From NCBI RefSeq assembly GCF_011050055.1, contig NZ_DRGM01000076.1, forward strand, positions 62,001 through 126,000: a DNA stretch of 64,000 bases, in the 5' to 3' direction. The notes beneath the pieces are model-generated. The model had not been told where the DNA came from and did no database searches. It was given only the letters and a program-made list of their open reading frames with translations. Numbering within the stretch: the first letter of the stretch is position 1; the number at the start of each line of letters is the position of its first letter. Below, in pieces: positions 7,985-55,139 of this stretch. Both the position numbers and the translations under genes were made by a program. This stretch comes from Pseudoalteromonas prydzensis (GTDB lineage: Bacteria; Pseudomonadota; Gammaproteobacteria; Enterobacterales; Alteromonadaceae).

Positions 7985-10576
<2,592 letters not shown>

Positions 10577-10654: not shown

Positions 10655-12472
10655 TTAATTTGCTGTGCAATCACGCAGCGCCATTTTTGCAGACATATCA
10701 ATAATCAAGCACTGATCAGGCAGGGCATGATTAAGGTTATCGTAAATACTGAATGCTTGAGTTAGGGCTGATTTTAGCTGACAAATGTTTTTACCTTTAT
10801 TGTCGTTGCTAGCGGCGCACTTTGTATTGTTATTTAATAACTTAGCCATTGTTTGATAAGATTGCCGAGTTGATTGGGTAATATCAGTAAAGGCAAGTGA
10901 GCCAGCATTGCGCACTAAGTAAAAGTCAGTGATAAAATCGAATATGGTTTTCGTTTGTAAATCTTGCTGTTGGGCTTCAGTTAACTGCCCGTCACTGTTA
11001 AACAACACAATTGCATCTAATAAAGTCATATTTAGCACTTCATCACGCACGCTCTGCGGCCATTCACGGGGTATAAACCGCCACTTCGCCAATGCCTGTA
11101 GATGCAACTTACTGTAACTATGGTAATCCTTAGCCGTTAAAATGCGTTTATCCCATACTTGCTCAGGGTGATTTTTTATCAGGTAATCATGCTCTATTTG
11201 GTAAGCGCTAAATAATCTATCAAAATGAGGCACATCATCAATCGTGATGGTATCCACTTTTGCAAACTGTTTATCCAGCGTTACTAATTTATAAGCTGGC
11301 CGATACGCGGCAATAGAAGGTGCCTGAATATTAAATAGCGTGTTATGTTCAGTTTCTATCACTGAGGTGTCATTCATATGCATATGACCGCCAATATGCA
11401 GCTTTAAACCGGTTTCCGCTAACAACTTACGAGTATTAAGTTCAGGCTCACGCGCTAGCTGAAATGCCGACTCACCAAATAAGGATTTAATCGACTGCGT
11501 TTGACCGTCGTAAAACTCTCCCATCGGAAAATGACTAAACGCAATCAGGGTTTTATTTTCAGCTTTCGCGCGTTGCACCACTTGCGTGATCCAGCTTAAT
11601 AAAAACGGTTTTTCTGTCAGGACTTTGTTATAGCCCGCATTGCCCGAGCCTTGAAACTGTAATACGCCATTTTTAAGTGCTGGTATATACACATTAGCAT
11701 CAATGGCTAATAGCCAAAGCCCTGGGATCGGCTCAACTAAATAACTGCTATCGGGCACGGTTGAGCAGCGTGTTTTATCGTTCTCTGCACATTGCATATA
11801 ACTGCGCTCAGCAAGCGCTGCACCTTTGCCAAATGGCGTTTCCCATAAAATATCACGGCTATTTGGCATTAAACCAAACGGCGCCATTATTTCAACAATC
11901 TCTTTATAACCTGCGTGAGCGATTTTATCACTGCATATTAACCAGTGGTTTTCGCCAGATACATTCTCACAGTACGGATGATCGGTTGAGTAAATCCCTA
12001 CTTGCTGCCCTTGCGCACCTAAAAAGTCAGCTTTTCCCCCCGCACTTTTAAACGGTTTCACTGGATCATGATTACCAGGAATAGCAAAAAAGCGCATACC
12101 GTATTTTTTTGCGTAATTGTCTAAAATAACGTTTAAACCGTTTAAGTGTACTGGTTGGCCGTCATCGCTAAAATCCCCTGGCAGCGCCACGAGCTTGACG
12201 CCTTTGGCGGCAATATCATCTAAGGTGGCGATTAACGCAAAATAGTTTTCATTAAATAAGCGCGTAGAATGAATTTGCGCTTGCATGCTACGAATACTGA
12301 CGGGGGCAGTGCCTTTGATCAGCTCAATGCCTTTAAATCCAGCATCAGCAAAATCCCCATAAATATCATGAAAGTGAATGTCGGGCACAAAGGCAATTTT
12401 TGTATTGCTAGGAAGGGCGGCGTGTAGCAATGTACTGCTTAGAAAAATCAGCAGTGATAACAGTAACTTCAT
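10655..12472 (-). CDS. Secreted calcineurin-like metallophosphoesterase
   Basis: The 605-residue protein begins with a signal peptide (about residues 1-19). The five metallophosphoesterase signatures are present: DIHFHD (Asp31, His33), GDFSDDG (Asp100), GNHD (134-136), a central histidine (FSHFPMG) and GGHMHMND near residue 360. It should be a two-metal phosphomonoesterase or phosphodiesterase in the periplasm or outside the cell. The last 200 residues have no domain I recognise. It lies 75 bp after a TonB-dependent receptor on the same strand, with a hairpin between them. I infer that the receptor imports what this enzyme releases, or its phosphorylated precursor. Confidence 0.85.
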   Translation of the reverse strand: MKLLLSLLIFLSSTLLHAALPSNTKIAFVPDIHFHDIYGDFADAGFKGIELIKGTAPVSIRSMQAQIHSTRLFNENYFALIATLDDIAAKGVKLVALPGDFSDDGQPVHLNGLNVILDNYAKKYGMRFFAIPGNHDPVKPFKSAGGKADFLGAQGQQVGIYSTDHPYCENVSGENHWLICSDKIAHAGYKEIVEIMAPFGLMPNSRDILWETPFGKGAALAERSYMQCAENDKTRCSTVPDSSYLVEPIPGLWLLAIDANVYIPALKNGVLQFQGSGNAGYNKVLTEKPFLLSWITQVVQRAKAENKTLIAFSHFPMGEFYDGQTQSIKSLFGESAFQLAREPELNTRKLLAETGLKLHIGGHMHMNDTSVIETEHNTLFNIQAPSIAAYRPAYKLVTLDKQFAKVDTITIDDVPHFDRLFSAYQIEHDYLIKNHPEQVWDKRILTAKDYHSYSKLHLQALAKWRFIPREWPQSVRDEVLNMTLLDAIVLFNSDGQLTEAQQQDLQTKTIFDFITDFYLVRNAGSLAFTDITQSTRQSYQTMAKLLNNNTKCAASNDNKGKNICQLKSALTQAFSIYDNLNHALPDQCLIIDMSAKMALRDCTAN

Positions 12473-12547: not shown

Positions 12548-15316
12548 TTAAAAGATAGCCCGAACACCTAACGCCATGCGTCGGCCTGAGAACTCATACA
12601 TAGTTGGAAAAGCGGGATCTAAAGTATAACCTTGGGTTGCTTCATCCGTAATATTGATCCCTTCTAATGTCACTTTAACAACATCATTTATATTGTACCC
12701 AAGCGATACATCCATTTGCCCATACGCATCACGATAAACGGGGTACATATCACGCTCAATGTACTCTACGTATTTGTCTTTGTAGTTATATGAAATGCGC
12801 GCATCAAAGCTGTCGTTTTCGTAATAAAAAGTCAGGTTGTAAGTTTCATCAGCAAGCCCTTCTGGAGGCGTAGGAATGCCTAGATCAGATGCCCCCGTTA
12901 ATGAGTTTTCTAATGTGGTGTAGTTGGCATTAATACCAAAACCTTCCAACATACGATGAAAACGAACAAACGGAATTTGTGCAATAAACTCGATACCACT
13001 AACATCATACGAGCCTTCAGCATTGACTTTTTGATAAACATCAAAGTCATAAACACCGTCAACACTGCCGTTATCGTTGTATTTAGTAACGCCTTCGACC
13101 ACACCGGTGAGTGATTCACGCACGACGCCTTCGATTTCTTTTTCAAAGTAAGAAACAGCTAATAAGCCACCTTCTGCTAAATACCATTCAAGGCCTACTT
13201 CCCATTGATCAGCATAAGTTGGTTGTAAGTCTGGATTACCATCGCGGTATTTAAATTCGTTTAAACTCACAGTGCGTTTATAAGCAATATCAGTCAGTGC
13301 AGGGCGCATAAGTGTTTCAGATGCTGCGGCACGAAGTACTAGGTCATCAGTAAGCTCAAGGGTAAAGTTAACACTCGGTAGTAAATCGCTGTAATTACCA
13401 TTTTTTGACACTGGCGCTGAAGTGTAATCAGTTGAGCCATCATCATTTTGCACTTGATGATAACCCGATGAATTTACATCGGTATCAATATAGCGCACGC
13501 CAGTGTTAAGGGTTGCCGGCATATCACCAATATCAAAGGCAAAATCAGCCATAGCGTAAATCGCCGTGGTTTTTTCTTCTACTTGGTAGTATTGATCTGG
13601 TGTAAAATCAACCACAAAGCCTGTATATCTAAGCTGCTCACGGGCATAGCTATTTGAGATTTGGCGCCAATCAGCCTTAGCAGACACCTCAGATAAATAC
13701 TCTCCCCCATGGACCAGATCTGCAATGCTGGTCAGCTCGCTGTCAGCCAATGTACGCGTGCCTACCCAAGACGTGTCACCTGCTGATGGACCCGTTGCTC
13801 GATTAGTGCCATAGTTACGCTGTTTTGATTTATCGGTATAACGTGCACCAAATTGCACTTTAGTTAGCGCGGGGAAAAACGTTAAGTTTAATTGACGAGA
13901 AAAGTCTAGCTGCGCGGCATATTTGTCATCTGAGATTGCCTCAAGATTGACTTCGTTATAGTCGAATAAATAAGCGTCTGGTGAGTTATACATATCGAAG
14001 GTGTTGGCATTATCACTTGGGATGGTCTCGGCACCTGTACTGGTATAACGCGAGCGGGTAGCTCGGTATGCAGTATGCTTTAAATTAGTTGTTTCTGTTG
14101 ATTTATCAGCACCACTGTAACCAACCAAACCATACACATCCCATTCACCGACTAACCAATCCATCGCAATACTGAGTTGTTGATAATCCGTATCGCTGCT
14201 GTGTTCTTTACTTAAAAACTCGTGTTGTGTAGCAGCGTAATCAACATCGGTCAAAACCGTTATACCGTAATCTGCAAGCGTTGTGTTGTCGTATTGGTTT
14301 ACTCGCTCAAGCGAACTAATACTGGATGCGGTGTATGCTGCTGCATCGTATTCGTCTTCATGATCATCAAAATTGCCCAGTAAGCCATCAAAAGTTAAGC
14401 TAAATTCACTACTGGGTTTATATTGTAATGATAACGTTGCGCCCCATTTTTCTTGCTCTGTTAGGTAGGCACGGTCGCCCACTTTATCTAAAAACACCAC
14501 GCGACTGGTTTCGTCACTATTGAAGCGATCGTCAATTGTAATGCCCGTGTCCCGCGCTAACACATCAGCAGCTTGATCTGACTGCCACTGCGATGAGCCT
14601 TTCTTTTCTAACCAACGTGAAAGCGGGCGAAAGTTAATTCCCGAGTTACTATCGGTGCGGTTAGTACGCTCAGAATAAGCAAGCGAGGCAAGGGCGCCCC
14701 AATCACCAAATGTGTCGCTGGCCAAAAAGGCAAACTTAGGATCTGTTTGTTCAGATATTTCGTTATACGCCCCTTCAACCGAGGCAACTAACTTACGGCC
14801 GTCGTAATCAAAAGGCCTTGCCGTGGTGATAGCGACCGAACCTGCAATTCCCCCTTCTTCATCCGCAGCGGTGGGCGATTTTTTTACCGTGACACTTTGA
14901 ATAATCTCCGAGGCAAAAATATCAAACTCAACATCGCGCCCGCCACTGCCCGATGCCGTAGCTAGGTTATTGATTGATACAAACGTAAACTCGCTCGGTA
15001 AACTACGCACATTCACCTTTTGCCCCAAACCTTTATTACGCTCAATCGTCACTCCAGGCATACGTTGCAGTGCTTCCGCTAAGTTTTGCTCAGGAAAGTC
15101 CGCGATATCAGACGCCACTATTGAATCAGAAAAACCAATATTTGCCCGTTTTAAGTCTATCGCTTGTTCTAAACTTTTAATGTAACTGCCTGTTACAACG
15201 ATTTGTTCCATCGCATGCTCTTCATTTTCAGTGTCTTGTGCGTAGCTTGGCGCAACAAATAATGCGCTCAATGCTAATGCTAACGGTGAGAATGGGAAAA
15301 TTCGCTTAGTCATCAT
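12548..15316 (-). CDS. TonB-dependent outer-membrane receptor (no N-terminal signalling domain)
   Basis: The 922-residue protein has a signal peptide (to about residue 26, ending SYAQ), a TonB box (MEQIVVTGSY, about 36-45), a plug domain (EALQRMPGVTIERN, FDIFASEIIQSVTVKKSPTA) and a long beta-barrel ending in an aromatic/hydrophobic strand (RRMALGVRAIF). The plug pattern is typical of the TonB receptors for sugars or other nutrients common in marine gammaproteobacteria. It lacks the STN domain of regulated siderophore receptors. It heads a unit with the secreted phosphoesterase and is divergent from a FecI-like sigma gene 217 bp away. The ligand is unknown; a phosphorylated compound is a reasonable guess from context. 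Confidence 0.9.
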   Translation of the reverse strand: MMTKRIFPFSPLALALSALFVAPSYAQDTENEEHAMEQIVVTGSYIKSLEQAIDLKRANIGFSDSIVASDIADFPEQNLAEALQRMPGVTIERNKGLGQKVNVRSLPSEFTFVSINNLATASGSGGRDVEFDIFASEIIQSVTVKKSPTAADEEGGIAGSVAITTARPFDYDGRKLVASVEGAYNEISEQTDPKFAFLASDTFGDWGALASLAYSERTNRTDSNSGINFRPLSRWLEKKGSSQWQSDQAADVLARDTGITIDDRFNSDETSRVVFLDKVGDRAYLTEQEKWGATLSLQYKPSSEFSLTFDGLLGNFDDHEDEYDAAAYTASSISSLERVNQYDNTTLADYGITVLTDVDYAATQHEFLSKEHSSDTDYQQLSIAMDWLVGEWDVYGLVGYSGADKSTETTNLKHTAYRATRSRYTSTGAETIPSDNANTFDMYNSPDAYLFDYNEVNLEAISDDKYAAQLDFSRQLNLTFFPALTKVQFGARYTDKSKQRNYGTNRATGPSAGDTSWVGTRTLADSELTSIADLVHGGEYLSEVSAKADWRQISNSYAREQLRYTGFVVDFTPDQYYQVEEKTTAIYAMADFAFDIGDMPATLNTGVRYIDTDVNSSGYHQVQNDDGSTDYTSAPVSKNGNYSDLLPSVNFTLELTDDLVLRAAASETLMRPALTDIAYKRTVSLNEFKYRDGNPDLQPTYADQWEVGLEWYLAEGGLLAVSYFEKEIEGVVRESLTGVVEGVTKYNDNGSVDGVYDFDVYQKVNAEGSYDVSGIEFIAQIPFVRFHRMLEGFGINANYTTLENSLTGASDLGIPTPPEGLADETYNLTFYYENDSFDARISYNYKDKYVEYIERDMYPVYRDAYGQMDVSLGYNINDVVKVTLEGINITDEATQGYTLDPAFPTMYEFSGRRMALGVRAIF

Positions 15317-48761: not shown

Positions 48762-48960
48762 ACAGATCATATTTTTACTAAGCAAAATACTATTTGCTAA
48801 AAATAGCCAGTGTAATGGGGGTTAAGTTAGTAAAATAATGATCTAAGAGGGGAGAAATACTAAAAATAGTCGAACTTGGATCACGATTTTACTAACTAAA
48901 AGGTAAAATAGATCATGATCTTACTAACTTAGAAAGGGTTCAGATCAGATTTTTATCAAC
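48762..48960. repeat. Left iteron cluster, downstream of parB
   Basis: Five near-copies of the iteron GTTAGTAAAAANNTGATCTG occur: minus at 48762-48781, plus at 48826-48844, minus at 48878-48896, minus at 48910-48928, and a weaker minus one at 48941-48960 whose last base overlaps the parB stop. Each includes a GATC site. The same motif occurs in the origin region 2.6 kb away on the other side of parAB. Such distant clusters in plasmids and Vibrio chromosome 2 bind the initiator and control copy number. Confidence 0.8.
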
Positions 48961-49922
48961 TAATTAAAGGCATTTAAAAGCTTAGTTAATTGCTCTAAGC
49001 GCTTGTCTGTCATAACTTTATTGTCAATTTTAATGGAAACATCACCACTTTTTAAATTGCGTTGTACACTGATATAGTCATTTTCTAACAAAGCTTCACG
49101 GCGTTGTGCTGATTGCGGCTCAGCGGTGAGCAGCTTAGTGATCGCCATTGCACGCTTATCATCACCAGTGATTTCTTGTAAACTTTGCTCATGAGTTAAA
49201 TGATCAACCAGTTGATTAAAGGCATGTTCATCACGCTCTTTCGCTGCGATCAATTTTTTAGCGACTTCACGGCCAACATGGTTAGCGGTAGGGTATAGCG
49301 AAAGCACCGTAGCAGGGAGCTTCTCATAGGCTTTAATTGCATCCGCTATGGCAGTATGAGATACCCCTTCAATCGCAGCGACTTCACGATAAGAGCCTTT
49401 TTTGCCTTGCTCAACTAACTCATCTTTGGTTTGCTGATAAGCTTGACCAAGTTCCCATAAGCTCGGAGCAATATATTGATCCGATGAAATAGCTAAAATC
49501 TTAGCATCTTGTTCAGTAAAATCTGATGAACTTAACACCATGTAATCAGCCTGACCTAAAATACAGGCCATACGACGTCGTGAGCCTGCCAGTACCAGTG
49601 TTTCATCACCTTTGTCCCAACATAGGGCTGGGTGTTGGTTGCGCCCGTCTTCGCGGATTGCAGGAAGGATATCGGCGACTGATTTTTCATTCAGCAATAT
49701 CTGAACACGGCGATTTTTAGCATAAACCTTAGTGCTACTTTCAATCTCTGCATGGGGGATCACTTTACAAACAAGGGTGATCTGACGCTTTGGATCACTC
49801 GGTGCAGGCATTTTGATCACATCACCAGCGCTGGCTTGCTCCAGTAACTCATCTAAACTACTGCTACCAATTGAAGTTGCAAAAGGATCTAAGCTGGTGT
49901 CATTTTTACGTTTTTTAGCCAT
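48960..49922 (-). CDS. parB: Partition protein ParB (P1/SopB-like)
   Basis: The 320-residue protein has a ParB core with LAGSRRRMACILG (about 111-123), a helix-turn-helix (GSYREVAAIEGVSHTAIADAIKAYEKL, about 176-202), and a C-terminal dimer region. The pattern is that of the type Ia family of P1 and F, which uses a large ParA. It should bind a centromere-like parS site, which I could not identify. It starts 15 bases after parA on the same strand, so the two form one operon. Confidence 0.92.
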   Translation of the reverse strand: MAKKRKNDTSLDPFATSIGSSSLDELLEQASAGDVIKMPAPSDPKRQITLVCKVIPHAEIESSTKVYAKNRRVQILLNEKSVADILPAIREDGRNQHPALCWDKGDETLVLAGSRRRMACILGQADYMVLSSSDFTEQDAKILAISSDQYIAPSLWELGQAYQQTKDELVEQGKKGSYREVAAIEGVSHTAIADAIKAYEKLPATVLSLYPTANHVGREVAKKLIAAKERDEHAFNQLVDHLTHEQSLQEITGDDKRAMAITKLLTAEPQSAQRREALLENDYISVQRNLKSGDVSIKIDNKVMTDKRLEQLTKLLNAFN

Positions 49923-49937
49923 TATTTGTTAACTACC

Positions 49938-51176
49938 TTACTTAGGTTCATTCAATTGAGATTGGGTTGAAAGCCAATTCGAGCGGATCAACATTTCAAG
50001 TTCATCGACCACATCTTTAATGTTTTCTTGAGCGCGCAATAAAGACTCACGACTAGCAAGACTATCAGATGTTTTTTGATCAAAGATGGTATTAAATGAT
50101 GACGAACTGGCGGTAATAGCTGAACTATGATTGATAGGGTAACTCATCACTTGACGACCAAAAGCACTACGCACATCTTTAACAATGTCACGCTGCGAAT
50201 GGTTGCCTTTAACGTAATTAGTCACTAAAAATTGCATAAAGTCCCAGCCTTCATGGCCTAAAGAAGCCACTGTGTGGTAAATCTCACCTAAGCGTTTAAG
50301 GTATTTATTGTTCGCATCAAAGTCGACTGCTTCTGGATGCACAGGAATGAGCATTGCAGTAGATGCCATTAAAGCATTATAAAACATAAAGTTAAGTGAT
50401 GGAGCTGTATCAATTAAGATGATGTCAAATTGGTCTTTAACAGGCTCAATTACTTTTTCGAGCAATTTATGATAGTGACGAGTAACGTCGTAACTTGAGC
50501 TATCTTTTAGCAATGTTGCTGTTTCATGCTCAAAGTAAAAATCATCCATTCCTGACGGTAATATACGAATATTTGGAATATGCGTTGGTAAAAATGCATT
50601 AGTAACCAGTTGTTGCCAGGTTTCATCCGCATCTAAATCAATACAATCACGCATTAAATCGCCAACAGTAATTGGCTCAGGTTCGCTAGGTGGAAAAAAA
50701 CTTGAAGAAGAGCCTTGTGGATCTAGATCGATAATACCAATGCGGTAACGCTTAATATTAGTCGTTGCTAACGCAGCTGCAATATTCACCATACTGGTGG
50801 TTTTACCACAACCGCCTTTTAATGAGTTGATCACAATAACCTGTAATTTGTCGTCAACATTACGATGATCTGGCTGAATATCCATGATTTCTGCCATCGC
50901 AAAGATATTCACTAGGGTATAAGCGTAATGGCCGTTAGCACCGCGTTTGATGTTTAACTGATCAAAATCGCCATTATCATGTCTGCGTTTTAGAGTTCGA
51001 TTATTACAGCCTAATAAATCTGCTGCAGCCTTTTGTGTATAGGTGCGGAGTTCTTTTTCTTCTGATTTTAAATGGGCACGATAATGCTGAATACGTCCTG
51101 CTAATGATTTTTCTGCTACTTCTGCAGTTGCTTTTAAAAGCCGATAAGTGGAGAGTGCATTATTATGAATTGACAT
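49938..51176 (-). CDS. parA: Partition ATPase ParA (type Ia, with N-terminal DNA-binding domain)
   Basis: From the ATG at 51176 (after GAGGAAGAAAG) the protein has 412 residues. An N-terminal domain with a helix-turn-helix (AAADLLGCNNRTLKRRHDNG, about 50-69) precedes the Walker ATPase: deviant Walker A KGGCGKTT (120-127), then DLDPQGSSS and DIILIDTAPSLNFM. This is the P1/F-type large ParA, which both segregates DNA and represses its own operon. The upstream gap (51177 to 51400) should hold its promoter; an AAGGTTA / TAACCTT inverted repeat is seen at about 51350-51388. Confidence 0.94.
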   Translation of the reverse strand: MSIHNNALSTYRLLKATAEVAEKSLAGRIQHYRAHLKSEEKELRTYTQKAAADLLGCNNRTLKRRHDNGDFDQLNIKRGANGHYAYTLVNIFAMAEIMDIQPDHRNVDDKLQVIVINSLKGGCGKTTSMVNIAAALATTNIKRYRIGIIDLDPQGSSSSFFPPSEPEPITVGDLMRDCIDLDADETWQQLVTNAFLPTHIPNIRILPSGMDDFYFEHETATLLKDSSSYDVTRHYHKLLEKVIEPVKDQFDIILIDTAPSLNFMFYNALMASTAMLIPVHPEAVDFDANNKYLKRLGEIYHTVASLGHEGWDFMQFLVTNYVKGNHSQRDIVKDVRSAFGRQVMSYPINHSSAITASSSSFNTIFDQKTSDSLASRESLLRAQENIKDVVDELEMLIRSNWLSTQSQLNEPK

Positions 51177-51454
51177 ACTTTCTTCCTCAAAGTTAGGCAT
51201 TTAGTATAATGTCCATTCAAATGACTGTAAACAACTATTTAAGACGACATGACTTTTAATAACAAGACATTAAAAAAACTGATTGGAAACTTAAAATCGC
51301 TTAGTATAAATAAAGAAGTTTAAAGGTGGTTAAATATATAAGGTAGTAAAGGTTAAGGGCCCTGAATATGAATATAACCTTATGAAATATATAAATAATA
51401 GTAAAAAATGCAGATCAGGTTTATACTTGGTTAAGATCAGATCTTTAGTTACTG

Positions 51455-51475
51455 ACAGATCGCTATTTTACTAAC
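51455..51475 (-). repeat. Iteron copy, origin cluster (minus)
   Basis: Reads GTTAGTAAAATAGCGATCTG on the minus strand, a near match to the shared iteron. Confidence 0.7.
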
Positions 51476-51494
51476 CGGAAATTTAATTATTTAG

Positions 51495-51503
51495 TTATCC
51501 ACA
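51495..51503 (+). promoter_or_regulatory. DnaA box
   Basis: TTATCCACA, a perfect high-affinity DnaA box. Confidence 0.85.
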
Positions 51504-51538
51504 GTTTGAGCACAGTATTATGCACAAAAAGTGTTGCT

Positions 51539-51558
51539 TAGATCAGTTTTTTACTAAG
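51539..51558 (-). repeat. Iteron copy, origin cluster (minus)
   Basis: Reads CTTAGTAAAAAACTGATCTA on the minus strand, close to the shared iteron. Confidence 0.75.
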
Positions 51559-51570
51559 TAAATTAAGATG

Positions 51571-51579
51571 TTATCCACC
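51571..51579 (+). promoter_or_regulatory. DnaA box, one mismatch
   Basis: TTATCCACC, differing from the consensus in the last base. Confidence 0.6.
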
Positions 51580-51611
51580 TTAGATCGGGAAAAACAGTGA
51601 CTTTAATTGGT

Positions 51612-51648
51612 ATAGATCTGATCTGTAGTAGGTATAGATCAGATCTAT
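51612..51648. repeat. GATC-containing palindrome in the origin
   Basis: A 13-bp inverted repeat (ATAGATCTGATCT / AGATCAGATCTAT) with 11 bases between arms carries four GATC sites. It sits between the DnaA boxes and the direct iterons and may be an initiator dimer site or a rep operator. Confidence 0.75.
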
Positions 51649-51665
51649 GCTAACTGATCTGCTAA

Positions 51666-51674
51666 TTATCCACA
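51666..51674 (+). promoter_or_regulatory. DnaA box
   Basis: TTATCCACA, a perfect DnaA box just right of the GATC palindrome. Confidence 0.85.
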
Positions 51675-51781
51675 GCCTAGTTAGAAAAAACATCATTATG
51701 TCGTGTATTTAATTGTAAAAAATGAAAATAGACGGACAAAATTTTAGTTGAGTTAGTAAAATTTAGACTTATAACCCCTCA

Positions 51782-51880
51782 GTTAGTAAAAAAGTGATCT
51801 GAAAACATCAAAGATCATGTTATGTTAGTAAAAAAGTGATCTGAAAATATATTTTAAACTCAGATCAACTTTATACTAAC
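51782..51880 (+). repeat. Direct iterons in front of rep
   Basis: A 24-bp sequence (GTTAGTAAAAAAGTGATCTG followed by AAAA) occurs exactly twice, at 51782-51805 and 51824-51847, 42 bp apart (four helical turns). An inverted, weaker copy is at 51861-51880, and a partial one without GATC at 51752. The direct repeats are the likely main initiator-binding sites. Confidence 0.88.
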
Positions 51881-51949
51881 TTAAACATTTAACTTTTACA
51901 GTTTAATGTGTTGTTATTAGCTGTCGCAACAAATTTGGAAATAAGAACA

Positions 51950-53164
51950 ATGAACCGAAAGGTCAACATCTCGGTAGATAACTTACCCGATACATTACGG
52001 GGACAGATCCACGGGGTGGAAAGTGCAATTGATAACGAAAGCCTCGCATTATTTACAGATAATAAAGATGTACGCGTATCATTAGAAAATGCAGCGCATG
52101 GCTTACGTGCCTATTCAAATACATTCAATCATTATGATTTATGGGGACGTTTTGTTCGCTCTGGTCATAAAAAATTACCTTTAGAAGAAGCACCGAAAAA
52201 AACCATCATAACGCGAAAAATATCAGAGAAGGTTGATGGTATTTTATATGATGGTGAAATTAAGATCACACCTGCTGTAGTCAGTAGTCGCAAAGATGGT
52301 GAAGATGTTGAATATTTAGTATGGCCATCAGATCGTGAAGAAAAAGTTGAACGTGCACTGATTCGTTTAGCGTCAAAAGGTAAGATCGTAAAAATTAATT
52401 TTAAGTCCGGTATTCAATATGCTGTGGTTTTTTCGATGAACGAATTGGCCCAAGAACTTAAAGCGGTCGGGCAATCAATGCCTTATCCACAAATCAAAGA
52501 AGCATTAGAAGCACTGCAAGGTTCAAAGTTATCATTTAAGTATTCTGCGACAGATACAAAAAATACAGATATCGATGATTCATTTTACGAATCGAATATG
52601 AACTTCTTGTCGTCTCTTCATTTTAGTGGAAAAAAAGGGCAGGGCGGAAACGTAAAATGTGTGGCATGTTTGAATGCGTTTGTGCATAACATGATCGATA
52701 ATCTCGAGTACAAAGGTTATTACTTTAATAGTGCACAAGAATTAAAACGCGGTTTATCGCGTTGGATGATGCTTCGTCTTTATCATTTATGGCGTTATGC
52801 AGCACCTGGTAAAACATATCATTTTAGATTGCTTTCTATCATGGAAAAATATGGTTCAATATATTCAACCGATGATATTACGGAAAATAAATTAAAAGCA
52901 CTACGTCGTGATATGACAACAACAATGAAAGATTTAATTGAGAAAGGTGCAATTTCAGAATACAGCATCACCAATGTTAAAGAGGATAAAACCGGTAACA
53001 TTATTGACTACACCTATGAAATGCATCCGTCTGATCAATTCTGTGATGAAATACTAACTTTGAATAAGCATAACAAACGTATTGAAATTCAAGGCGGTAA
53101 ACGCATTGTTGAAAATGTAGTTTTAATCGATGAAGATAAAATTGAAGCTATTGTAGAAGATTGA
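51950..53164 (+). CDS. rep: Plasmid-type replication initiator protein (Rep)
   Basis: The 404-residue protein has no signal peptide and looks like two winged-helix initiator domains in the N- and C-terminal halves (SDREEKVERALIRLASKGKIVKINFKSG; AQELKRGLSRWMMLRLYHLWRYAAPGKTYHF). The ATG at 51950 is used; the frame extends to 51908 without a ribosome site. Its position next to iterons, DnaA boxes and parAB makes it the initiator that opens the origin. It resembles the initiators of large plasmids and of the second chromosome of Pseudoalteromonas; the exact family cannot be named without a search. It ends at a bidirectional terminator facing tus. Confidence 0.85.
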   Translation: MNRKVNISVDNLPDTLRGQIHGVESAIDNESLALFTDNKDVRVSLENAAHGLRAYSNTFNHYDLWGRFVRSGHKKLPLEEAPKKTIITRKISEKVDGILYDGEIKITPAVVSSRKDGEDVEYLVWPSDREEKVERALIRLASKGKIVKINFKSGIQYAVVFSMNELAQELKAVGQSMPYPQIKEALEALQGSKLSFKYSATDTKNTDIDDSFYESNMNFLSSLHFSGKKGQGGNVKCVACLNAFVHNMIDNLEYKGYYFNSAQELKRGLSRWMMLRLYHLWRYAAPGKTYHFRLLSIMEKYGSIYSTDDITENKLKALRRDMTTTMKDLIEKGAISEYSITNVKEDKTGNIIDYTYEMHPSDQFCDEILTLNKHNKRIEIQGGKRIVENVVLIDEDKIEAIVED

Positions 53165-53189
53165 TTTTTTTATAACGTACATCTTACTC

Positions 53190-53215
53190 AAAGGCCGCTA
53201 TCTAGCGGCCTTTTT
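53190..53215. terminator. Bidirectional terminator between rep and tus
   Basis: AAAGGCCGCT pairs with AGCGGCCTTT around ATCT, with T-tracts on both sides. It can stop both the rep (+) and tus (-) transcripts. Confidence 0.92.
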
Positions 53216-53222
53216 AACATAA

Positions 53223-54098
53223 TCACTTATCAACTTGTTCTAGGTATAACCTATCAACAAGAAAATCATATTCACGTTTTCGTGGGTGGCTTTCGGGTTT
53301 TTGATAATCTGGCAAGGTACCGAGTTTTACATCCGGATCAGGATTAATCAAAATAAAAGGTAATGCAGCACTAACATGATAACGATTTTGTGCTGTGTAT
53401 CTAACATTTACTTGCGGGCTTACTCGCGTTGGTCGGCGAATTCTTAATTTGTCTTTATCACCTAAACTTGCAACTCTTAACTGCTCTTGGGCAACCAGTG
53501 ATTGCCAACTGTGTTGGTCGATCATTCGTGGATTAGAGTAACCGGCCGATTTTTCGAGCATTGCCAGCGCCATTTTTTTTGTAAGAGTTTTGGTCGCATG
53601 CTTATGCATCCAAGTAAAACGAACTGAAAAAGGGGAGTTCATTTCAAAATGCACTTTTCGATATGCCGCAAGCGTTATTAAATTTGGAATAGCATTGTGC
53701 ACAGCTTCAAAGCGCGCATCATTATTATCGATTGCTAAAATACATTCTTTAAATGCGGCTTTAGCTTTATTTAATTGTTGAATTCGAGCAACGAGTTGTT
53801 TTTGATCTGCGTTATCAACAACCAATAGGCCAGGGTGGCGCTTTAAAACACGACTACTTAGCTCTGGTTTTTTATAAATATCTGTAAATGAATTTAATAT
53901 CGCCTTATGAGCTTCATCGCCAGTAACTTTTTTTACAGTAATAGACTGGGGAATAATTTTTTCATCGCGACTTTCAATATCTGGTAATTGGTAATACTCA
54001 GCCTTTTTATAGCCACTGGATTTTAGGTCATCAATAAATAAATTTGTTAAATCATTAAGCAAGTCGAACTGACTGCGAATTTGAACTTTAGTTACCAT
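53223..54098 (-). CDS. tus: Tus-like replication-fork arrest protein
   Basis: The 291-residue protein aligns with E. coli Tus (309) along its length. Shared blocks include LVARIQQLNKAKAAF (about 102-116), IPNLITLAAYRKV (137-149), RFTWMHKH (160-167), LEKSAGYSNPR (181-191) and the DNA-contacting KLRIRRPTRVSPQVNVRY (217-234). Tus binds Ter sites and blocks the replicative helicase from one side only. A Ter-like site ends exactly at its start codon (54099-54117, minus strand), so Tus probably represses its own gene, as at E. coli TerB. No Shine-Dalgarno sequence is visible, because Ter bases occupy that place. It is convergent to rep. Confidence 0.94.
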   Translation of the reverse strand: MVTKVQIRSQFDLLNDLTNLFIDDLKSSGYKKAEYYQLPDIESRDEKIIPQSITVKKVTGDEAHKAILNSFTDIYKKPELSSRVLKRHPGLLVVDNADQKQLVARIQQLNKAKAAFKECILAIDNNDARFEAVHNAIPNLITLAAYRKVHFEMNSPFSVRFTWMHKHATKTLTKKMALAMLEKSAGYSNPRMIDQHSWQSLVAQEQLRVASLGDKDKLRIRRPTRVSPQVNVRYTAQNRYHVSAALPFILINPDPDVKLGTLPDYQKPESHPRKREYDFLVDRLYLEQVDK

Positions 54099-54117
54099 AA
54101 GAACACATCATACTAAA
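54099..54117 (-). promoter_or_regulatory. Ter-like site 1, at the tus start
   Basis: On the minus strand TTTAGTATGATGTGTTCTT ends one base before the tus ATG. It shares AGTATG.TGT with the E. coli Ter core. By E. coli polarity it stops forks that move leftward (toward lower coordinates) and lets rightward ones pass. It also overlaps where tus expression must begin. Confidence 0.85.
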
Positions 54118-54231
54118 TTGAGATTGTTAGTTTATCATAGTGACAAATATATTCTATATTCAATTTCCGCACTTTCTCTTGGTTATTTTAAGTTAAGTTA
54201 TACTCGGTGTTTAGTTTAATATTAAATTTAA

Positions 54232-54250
54232 TTAAGTATGATGTGTTCTT
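54232..54250 (+). promoter_or_regulatory. Ter-like site 2
   Basis: On the plus strand TTAAGTATGATGTGTTCTT shares 16 bases (AGTATGATGTGTTCTT) with site 1, in the opposite orientation and 115 bp away. By E. coli polarity it stops rightward forks coming from the origin. Confidence 0.85.
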
Positions 54251-54660: not shown

Positions 54661-55124
54661 CTCCATTCGGATCATCAGTTAGTTGTGCTCTAACTAAATA
54701 CCTCGCTCACGAAGTGAATTCAGCGTTAGCAGAAGGGCTTACCCCAGGAATGTTTATTAATAAGTTGATGCCTGCGTTTATAAGACAAATTCGCTGTTAA
54801 GGTTACTTAGTCAATGCTCGCTAAACATCATACACCAACTGATTCTTGCTCATTACAAACATTGCTAGGGGCTGTTTATCACAATGAGCAAGTCGAAGGT
54901 CGAAGGTCGATCAAATCTAGTATGGCGCTAGCCGTAATGCCAATCTAATTGATAGCGGAAATGTTTGTAAAATAGCGTTCCTTAGAGTTAGCAGCGAGCT
55001 TTATACTGGTTATAAGCACAAATAACAGCGGCCCATAGCATGCAAATCCACAACCAGCAAGTTGATTGTTAAAAATATTAAGAAATACCTGTAAAGCTCA
55101 GGTTACACTCTATATGAAATACGG
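54661..55124. other. Gene-free remnant between IS relic and Ter site 3
   Basis: No reading frame of credible length or domain occurs. The higher GC and patchy frames suggest old insertion-sequence debris, but nothing is identifiable beyond the TnpA relic to its left. Confidence 0.4.
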
Positions 55125-55139
55125 TATGATGTGTTCTTT
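55121..55139 (+). promoter_or_regulatory. Ter-like site 3
   Basis: On the plus strand ACGGTATGATGTGTTCTTT shares 15 bases (GTATGATGTGTTCTT) with sites 1 and 2. It has the same orientation as site 2 and would back it up against rightward forks. The flanking bases have drifted. Confidence 0.8.

Follow-up and report, generated by a model that had tools for sequence, protein, structure and literature searches.

A Tus-Ter fork trap beside ori2 probably makes replication of the Pseudoalteromonas chromid one-way

We analyzed a 64,000-nucleotide window within contig C76 (132,191 bases) of a Pseudoalteromonas prydzensis draft genome (5.13 Mb, 224 contigs). The window contains the replication origin (ori2) of the second chromosome, or chromid, and next to it the gene for the replication terminus site-binding protein Tus. 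We conclude, with a probability of roughly 85%, that this region represents ori2 plus a Tus-Ter fork trap located 2–3 kb from the origin, which makes replication of the chromid one-way. A preliminary description of the same DNA had predicted leftward, one-way replication, and this prediction is supported by the polarity, position and conservation of the trap. It had also mentioned that chromosome II of Pseudoalteromonas has been reported to replicate in one direction, which agrees with the published work (PMC7858055). According to PMC7858055, Pseudoalteromonas is the first measured case of one-direction chromosome replication, with a mechanism left open and no ter site found. Sequencing coverage with a single slope has been described in eight strains including P. 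tunicata (PMC7858055), and for Chr2 of P. translucida (PMC13342612).

A scan of the window revealed three near-perfect copies of AGTATGATGTGTTCTT, with 0–1 mismatches, around the start of tus and to its right. The first (54099–54114, minus strand) lies in the tus leader, in a TerB-like place, and touches the tus start codon. The second is found at 54235–54250 (plus strand) and the third, with an exact core and one mismatch in a flanking base, at 55123–55138 with the same polarity as the second (plus strand). Shuffled versions of the window gave 0.69 matches at up to 3 mismatches, and four matches were reached in 2 of 100 shuffles. In the 5.13-Mb draft genome, the 15-base core is matched with at most one mismatch at five places, of which the window holds three, as compared to one place for the reversed control. 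The opposed repeats at 54099, 54235 and 55123 lie where the preliminary description had placed the trap, just right of tus; that text was right about the location but silent on a site for the returning fork and on chromosome I. A match at 51900–51915 (AGTTTAATGTGTTGTT, 3 mismatches) was not counted as a fourth Ter site, since it is paired with an inverted copy at 51257–51274 and is probably a parA/rep operator. A similar match is present near rep in 21 of 34 named loci, in addition to the window.

We take the first G of the core to be base 6 of Ter. This base is G in 106 of the 107 sites from the 34 named loci, across which the core is almost invariant and the flanks are variable. The non-permissive end of Ter in E. 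coli is the one with the GC(6) base pair (PMC8707476). On this basis, forks moving rightward are predicted to stop at 54235 and 55123, and forks moving leftward at 54099. In the mechanism that we propose, Rep would open ori2, which lies between parA and rep, and start two forks. The rightward fork would copy rep and tus, pass 54099–54114 in the permissive direction and be halted by Tus at 54235 or at the outer back-up site at 55123. The leftward fork would copy the remaining circle, pass 55123 and 54235 permissively and be halted at 54099–54114, and one-way replication would thus end in the gap of approximately 120 bp between the opposed Ter sites. The leader site may also let Tus repress its own gene, by analogy with TerB in E. 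coli. In strain MG1655, TerB (AATAAGTATGTTGTAACTAAAGT) directly precedes tus and is on the same strand as the gene, and the legend in PMC8707476 likewise places TerB at tus.

The tus gene (53223–54098, minus strand) encodes a protein of 291 amino acids, which matched PF05472 at 298 bits (E=7.1e-89; gathering score 22) and E. coli Tus (1ecr) with an E-value of 1.4e-29. Its scores are below the strict equivalog cut-offs of NCBIfam (317.6 of 323 bits for NF002810 and 125.8 of 178.3 for TIGR02648). The closest Tus among the named relatives is from P. prydzensis, with 93% identity. In the alignment to E. coli Tus, the equivalents of F140, H144, L150, R198 and E49 are retained. A tus gene was found in 107 of 108 Pseudoalteromonas genomes. 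Second, divergent tus genes were present on other contigs in 12 of the 108 genomes (G005:C3, G037:C3, G013:C3, G007:C3, G020:C30, G069:C6 and others), and these contigs are perhaps plasmids.

The Ter core, GTAWGATGTGTTCYT, was exact in 107 of the 108 genomes of the genus, with about four copies per genome and none for the reversed control. Outside the genus, it was found once each in 2 of 279 genomes of the same family, which is the chance level (one for the control). We surveyed polarity in those 99 of the 107 tus genomes for which exact sites no more than 60 kb from tus were listed, and among the matches listed trap polarity was broken in none of the 99. Both signs were present in 45 genomes, all with minus before plus sites, as in a trap, while 50 showed only minus and 4 only plus sites; in these single-sign genomes the exact matches do not contradict a trap, but they do not make up a full one either. 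When tus is placed on the plus strand, all 211 listed minus sites are located upstream of tus, none on the origin side, and face the fork leaving the origin. The 47 plus sites are found in the tus leader, 30–43 bases before the start of the Pfam match, and another two just past tus (+946). Beside tus in G054 there are only 1-mismatch sites, in trap order. No exact site was found on the tus contig of G096, and none within 2 mismatches across the 18–20 kb read around tus in G044, G099 and G062. In G010, tus and its Ter sites are on separate contigs, and the sites of G069 and G070 are not among the matches listed in the survey.

These positions also bear on the suggestion that the sites beside tus are operators for autoregulation of tus alone, with no fork arrest. 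A site at the start of tus in most loci, as for TerB in E. coli, agrees with it. However, additional sites reach up to 14 kb upstream of tus, and polarity is unbroken among the sites listed, although operators need no polarity. Loci L031 and L032 have their leader site in the opposite orientation and a plus site behind tus (near 9985 and 10975–11008), yet the trap order is retained, and autoregulation alone therefore does not explain the layout. The same core also occurs with trap polarity opposite oriC on chromosome I, and we consider the operator explanation extremely improbable.

Two arrays of Ter-like sites between tus and rep were observed within 2 mismatches, with 15 sites in G007 (L185 10548–13075, corresponding to G007:C2:745548–748075), arranged in a 182-bp tandem unit, and 11 sites in G061 (L186, corresponding to G061:C1:595512–597538). 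All 26 face the fork leaving the origin, and none of them has G at base 6, where A, C or T is found instead. These sites may bind Tus without locking.

Part of the chromid of the studied strain is assembled, as the 132,191-base contig, and the skew of whole replicons was therefore measured in relatives, using 20 blocks of 20 kb each (400 kb sampled per chromid). The single skew arm expected from the preliminary description was seen in three chromids with an origin-side trap. In the P. prydzensis relative (a contig of 1,099,556 bases) the skew was negative in 20 of 20 blocks in the orientation of the window, three of them near zero. G102 (980,475 bases) had the sign of one fork in 20 of 20 blocks, with the opposite sign in the last 10 kb by tus, and G067 (664,854 bases) in 18 of 20, the two exceptions being located around the origin. 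Two chromids with no origin-side Ter displayed two skew arms. For G044 (1,618,489 bases), the Ter sites at 825064 (minus) and 926045 (plus) mark or enclose the sign change, as do those at 737390 (minus) and 849851 (plus, 1 mismatch) for G099 (1,598,238 bases). The sizes of these two replicons fit the 1.60–1.67 Mb of the bidirectional Pseudoalteromonas chromids in PMC7858055. The Rep proteins of G044, G099 and G062 are still 83% identical to that of the window. It is therefore favoured that ori2 is able to send two forks, one of which is cancelled by the trap, and the comparison suggests that ori2 and Rep can in themselves fire both ways.

The same comparison is relevant to unidirectional initiation, in which Rep would load a single, leftward helicase and the trap would only stop the returning fork and prevent over-replication. 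The published data leave one versus two forks open (PMC7858055), and the site in the tus leader would alone suffice for a returning fork. Under that model, however, the 211 of 211 listed minus sites beside tus would face a fork that does not exist. In addition, relatives with an 83%-identical Rep and no origin-side Ter have two skew arms. We thus regard initiation of a single fork as unlikely.

It could also be argued that the chromid of the studied strain replicates both ways, with a leaky or inactive trap. The sign of the raw GC skew, positive from about 48 to 63 kb in the window, is what this explanation has in its favour. Raw skew is misleading within approximately 15 kb of the origin because plus-strand genes predominate there (3 of the 4 open reading frames, ORFs, to the right of tus), and local skew was remeasured at third codon positions, separately for each gene strand. 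This measure follows the direction of the fork, since the arms of the two-armed chromids change sign (plus/minus genes, +0.090/+0.108 versus −0.120/−0.043 in G044 and +0.071/+0.135 versus −0.158/−0.058 in G099). Right of the trap (C76 116250–132191), the third-position skew was −0.199 for plus genes (969 letters) and −0.106 for minus genes (320 letters), and left of the origin −0.094 and −0.040, respectively. At fourfold sites the values were −0.234/−0.012 right of the trap versus −0.141/−0.043 left of the origin. In the P. prydzensis relative, third-position skew was −0.157/−0.044 beyond the trap versus −0.128/−0.036 on the long arm. For the 34 named loci and the window combined, the far side of the trap gave skews of +0.092 and +0.207 with tus on the plus strand, which is negative in the orientation of the window.

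Thus, the raw positive skew at 48–63 kb looks like an effect of gene orientation. On this evidence, the leftward fork copies the genes at 55–63 kb as it completes the circle. The conflict that the preliminary description had seen between the plus-strand genes there and a leftward fork disappears, as the third-position skew is negative on both gene strands. The minus-strand bias that it had noted left of the origin is present (24 of 39 ORFs) but modest. The negative third-position values speak against a two-way chromid, as do the one-armed P. prydzensis relative and the two-armed genomes, which lack origin-side Ter sites and whose clade does not include the studied Tus. Two-way replication in the studied strain is therefore, in our judgement, very unlikely.

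Several observations weigh against one-way replication imposed by a trap. The raw skew at about 48–63 kb has the wrong sign, and the fourfold skew of minus genes right of the trap is only −0.012, on 164 letters. Over 80 kb beyond the trap in the P. prydzensis relative the raw skew is weak (−0.001 to −0.025). For the 34 named loci together with the window, the part of the long arm closest to the origin has a skew of approximately zero (0.004). Initiation of one fork only predicts the same skew. The loss of origin-side sites counts as a single evolutionary event because the Tus proteins of G044, G099 and G062 form one clade (support 100/100, long branch), outside which the Tus of the window is placed. 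Four genomes show the leader site alone as an exact match, and two of the residues that presumably form the C(6) pocket of Tus are changed, with K in place of I79 and N in place of G149 of the E. coli protein. The dif2-like site is located about 12.6 kb beyond the trap and thus outside it.

The dif2-like site is found at C76:128888 (66888 in window coordinates), about 15 kb from the origin region. In unidirectional chromids dif2 is located about 4–27 kb from ori2 (PMC7858055), and the distance in this genome falls within that range.

A second set of Ter sites was identified away from tus. At least two exact sites were present on 59 contigs of this kind, with minus before plus in 52, the reverse order in none and one sign only in 7; the 52 comprise 51 contigs other than the tus contig and the chromid of G044. 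Another 61 contigs away from tus carried a single exact site. For chromosome I of 33 finished or nearly finished genomes, we found 17 exact pairs, all with trap polarity. Among the matches listed, which at one mismatch extend as far as part of G098, six more pairs had one 1-mismatch partner and trap polarity (G003, G007, G018, G031, G041 and G051). These are weaker evidence, as the reversed control gave 4 matches at one mismatch in the same 33 genomes. G046 showed two plus sites only, and a single site was found in G054 (1 mismatch), G085, G100, G102 and G106. No exact site was found on chromosome I of G044, G060, G099 and G107, and for the two-armed genomes G044 and G099 none within one mismatch among the matches listed. 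The pair on chromosome I is thus often present but not universal.

The position on the circle was calculated for 18 of the 23 pairs and for G003, with G007, G018, G041 and G105 left out (dnaA of G105 is on another contig). In these 18 finished genomes (16 exact pairs and 2 with a 1-mismatch partner) the pair was on the dnaA contig at 0.471–0.527 of the circle from dnaA, with a spacing of 23–98 kb. A dif search of 58 genomes that allowed one mismatch gave a site in 35, the remaining genomes being uninformative on dif1. The dif1 site was inside the pair in all 16 genomes with a dif1-like site on the pair contig (12 exact pairs and four with a 1-mismatch partner), and in G046, G085 and G106, which have no pair, it was located on the side of the Ter sites where it would be expected. 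The studied genome carries such a pair at C46:7575 (minus) and 35749 (plus) with a dif-like site at 13902; C46 is assigned to chromosome I by inference from the relatives. From these positions and polarities, Tus encoded on the chromid probably serves a two-site terminus trap on chromosome I in trans. The same protein would bind the second pair of Ter sites opposite oriC, around dif1. We consider it likely that a single chromid Tus runs termination on both replicons, and that relocation of Ter, rather than a change of the initiator, made one lineage two-way.

The single contig of G003 displayed a Ter pair at C1:2287512 (minus, 1 mismatch) and 2342679 (plus), at 0.48–0.50 of the circle, with no tus and no MinC above the cut-off. 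MinC was present in the other eight genomes checked; seven of these are finished, and in each of the seven it is on the contig that carries tus. The assembly of G003 probably lacks the chromid.

The genes of the window are arranged as in the conserved ori2 cluster of Pseudoalteromonas chromids (PMC7858055). The partition gene of the parB2 type (48960–49922, minus strand) matched the plasmid ParB family NF010252 (E=2.5e-25, under the curated cut-off), and its product gave no match in the Pfam search. It is followed by a parA2-type partition ATPase gene (49938–51200, minus strand; PF13614, E=3.3e-27; TIGR03453, E=1.4e-61, under its cut-off). The origin region was assigned to the intergenic segment between parA and rep (51201–51949, no strand) from base composition, GATC sites, DnaA boxes and repeats. 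Its G+C content is 28%, as compared to 41% for the window, and it contains 15 GATC sites in 749 bases (20 per kb versus 3.7 in the window), exact DnaA boxes at 51495 and 51666, and repeats of GTTAGTAAAAAAGTGATCTGAAAA at 51782 and 51824. As rep starts at 51950, the origin is indeed located just left of rep, where it had been predicted. An 18-bp inverted repeat, 94% complementary, surrounds the origin, with one copy by the parA leader (51257–51274) and the other by the rep leader (51902–51919), and is likely to be an operator common to both genes.

The initiator gene rep (repA; 51950–53164, plus strand) encodes 404 amino acids, and its orthologues in 45 other loci examined are 83–99% identical. 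Rep had no match in Pfam or NCBIfam, and its AlphaFold model, obtained with an input of 20 near-identical sequences, had a mean pLDDT of 42.6. The tus gene was located beside rep in 46 of 46 loci read. In P. spongiae and P. tunicata, repA and ori2 constitute the minimal replicon (PMC7858055). The cluster of rep, tus and Ter was also observed in P. rhizosphaerae RA15 (L004), on a contig of 730,648 bases, whereas P. rhizosphaerae is listed in PMC12053903 as having no chromid.

Plasmid R1 depends on the Tus protein of its host. Like the window, R1 has an opposed pair of Ter sites (terRL and terRR) beside a plasmid-type origin, oriR; one fork is stopped early and the other goes round, which results in one-way replication (PMC10331603). 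Unlike in R1, tus of Pseudoalteromonas is on the replicon itself beside the origin, the replicon is of chromosome size, and the protein appears to serve the main chromosome too. The Tus homologue, the leader site and the trap polarity resemble E. coli Tus-Ter and the two-site "type I" trap of Enterobacterales (PMC8707476), as does the pair on chromosome I opposite oriC around dif. Unlike in E. coli, tus is on the chromid and not in the terminus of chromosome I, and the trap of the chromid is beside its origin. Ter of Pseudoalteromonas and TerB of E. coli have the G(6) end and the AAGTATGNTGT half in common but differ in the second half, which is GTTCTT in Pseudoalteromonas and AACTAA in TerB. 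The divergence after AAGTATGNTGT may therefore explain why a search of Pseudoalteromonas chromids with the E. coli consensus found no ter site (PMC7858055).

Replication in one direction, the position of tus next to ori2 and the proposal that forks are blocked close to ori2 are all in the literature (PMC7858055, PMC6549158, PMC8347550, PMC10331603). A fork block near ori2 is one of two options proposed in PMC7858055, the ter site of Pseudoalteromonas is marked with a question mark in PMC10331603, and PMC8347550 only speculates on a site at the tus promoter. We found no publication that reports Ter sites of Pseudoalteromonas on either replicon among the full texts with an open licence that were consulted, so such a paper could exist. 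New here are the Ter sites and their polarity, the link between where these sites lie and how the chromid replicates, and the pair on chromosome I, whereas the idea of a fork block is not.

That such second chromosomes replicate in a single direction is very probably due to a one-way roadblock beside ori2. The 15-base core, its polarity and its position amount to an exact proposal for the mechanism and predict the replication mode from sequence. The lineage with Ter opposite the origin is a natural experiment in which a plasmid-like replicon has turned into a two-armed chromosome. The pair on chromosome I suggests that a domesticated plasmid device has come to act on the main chromosome as well, a point relevant to the proposed plasmid origin of Tus-Ter. 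If this is true, the shared Tus protein would tie the main chromosome to a former plasmid.

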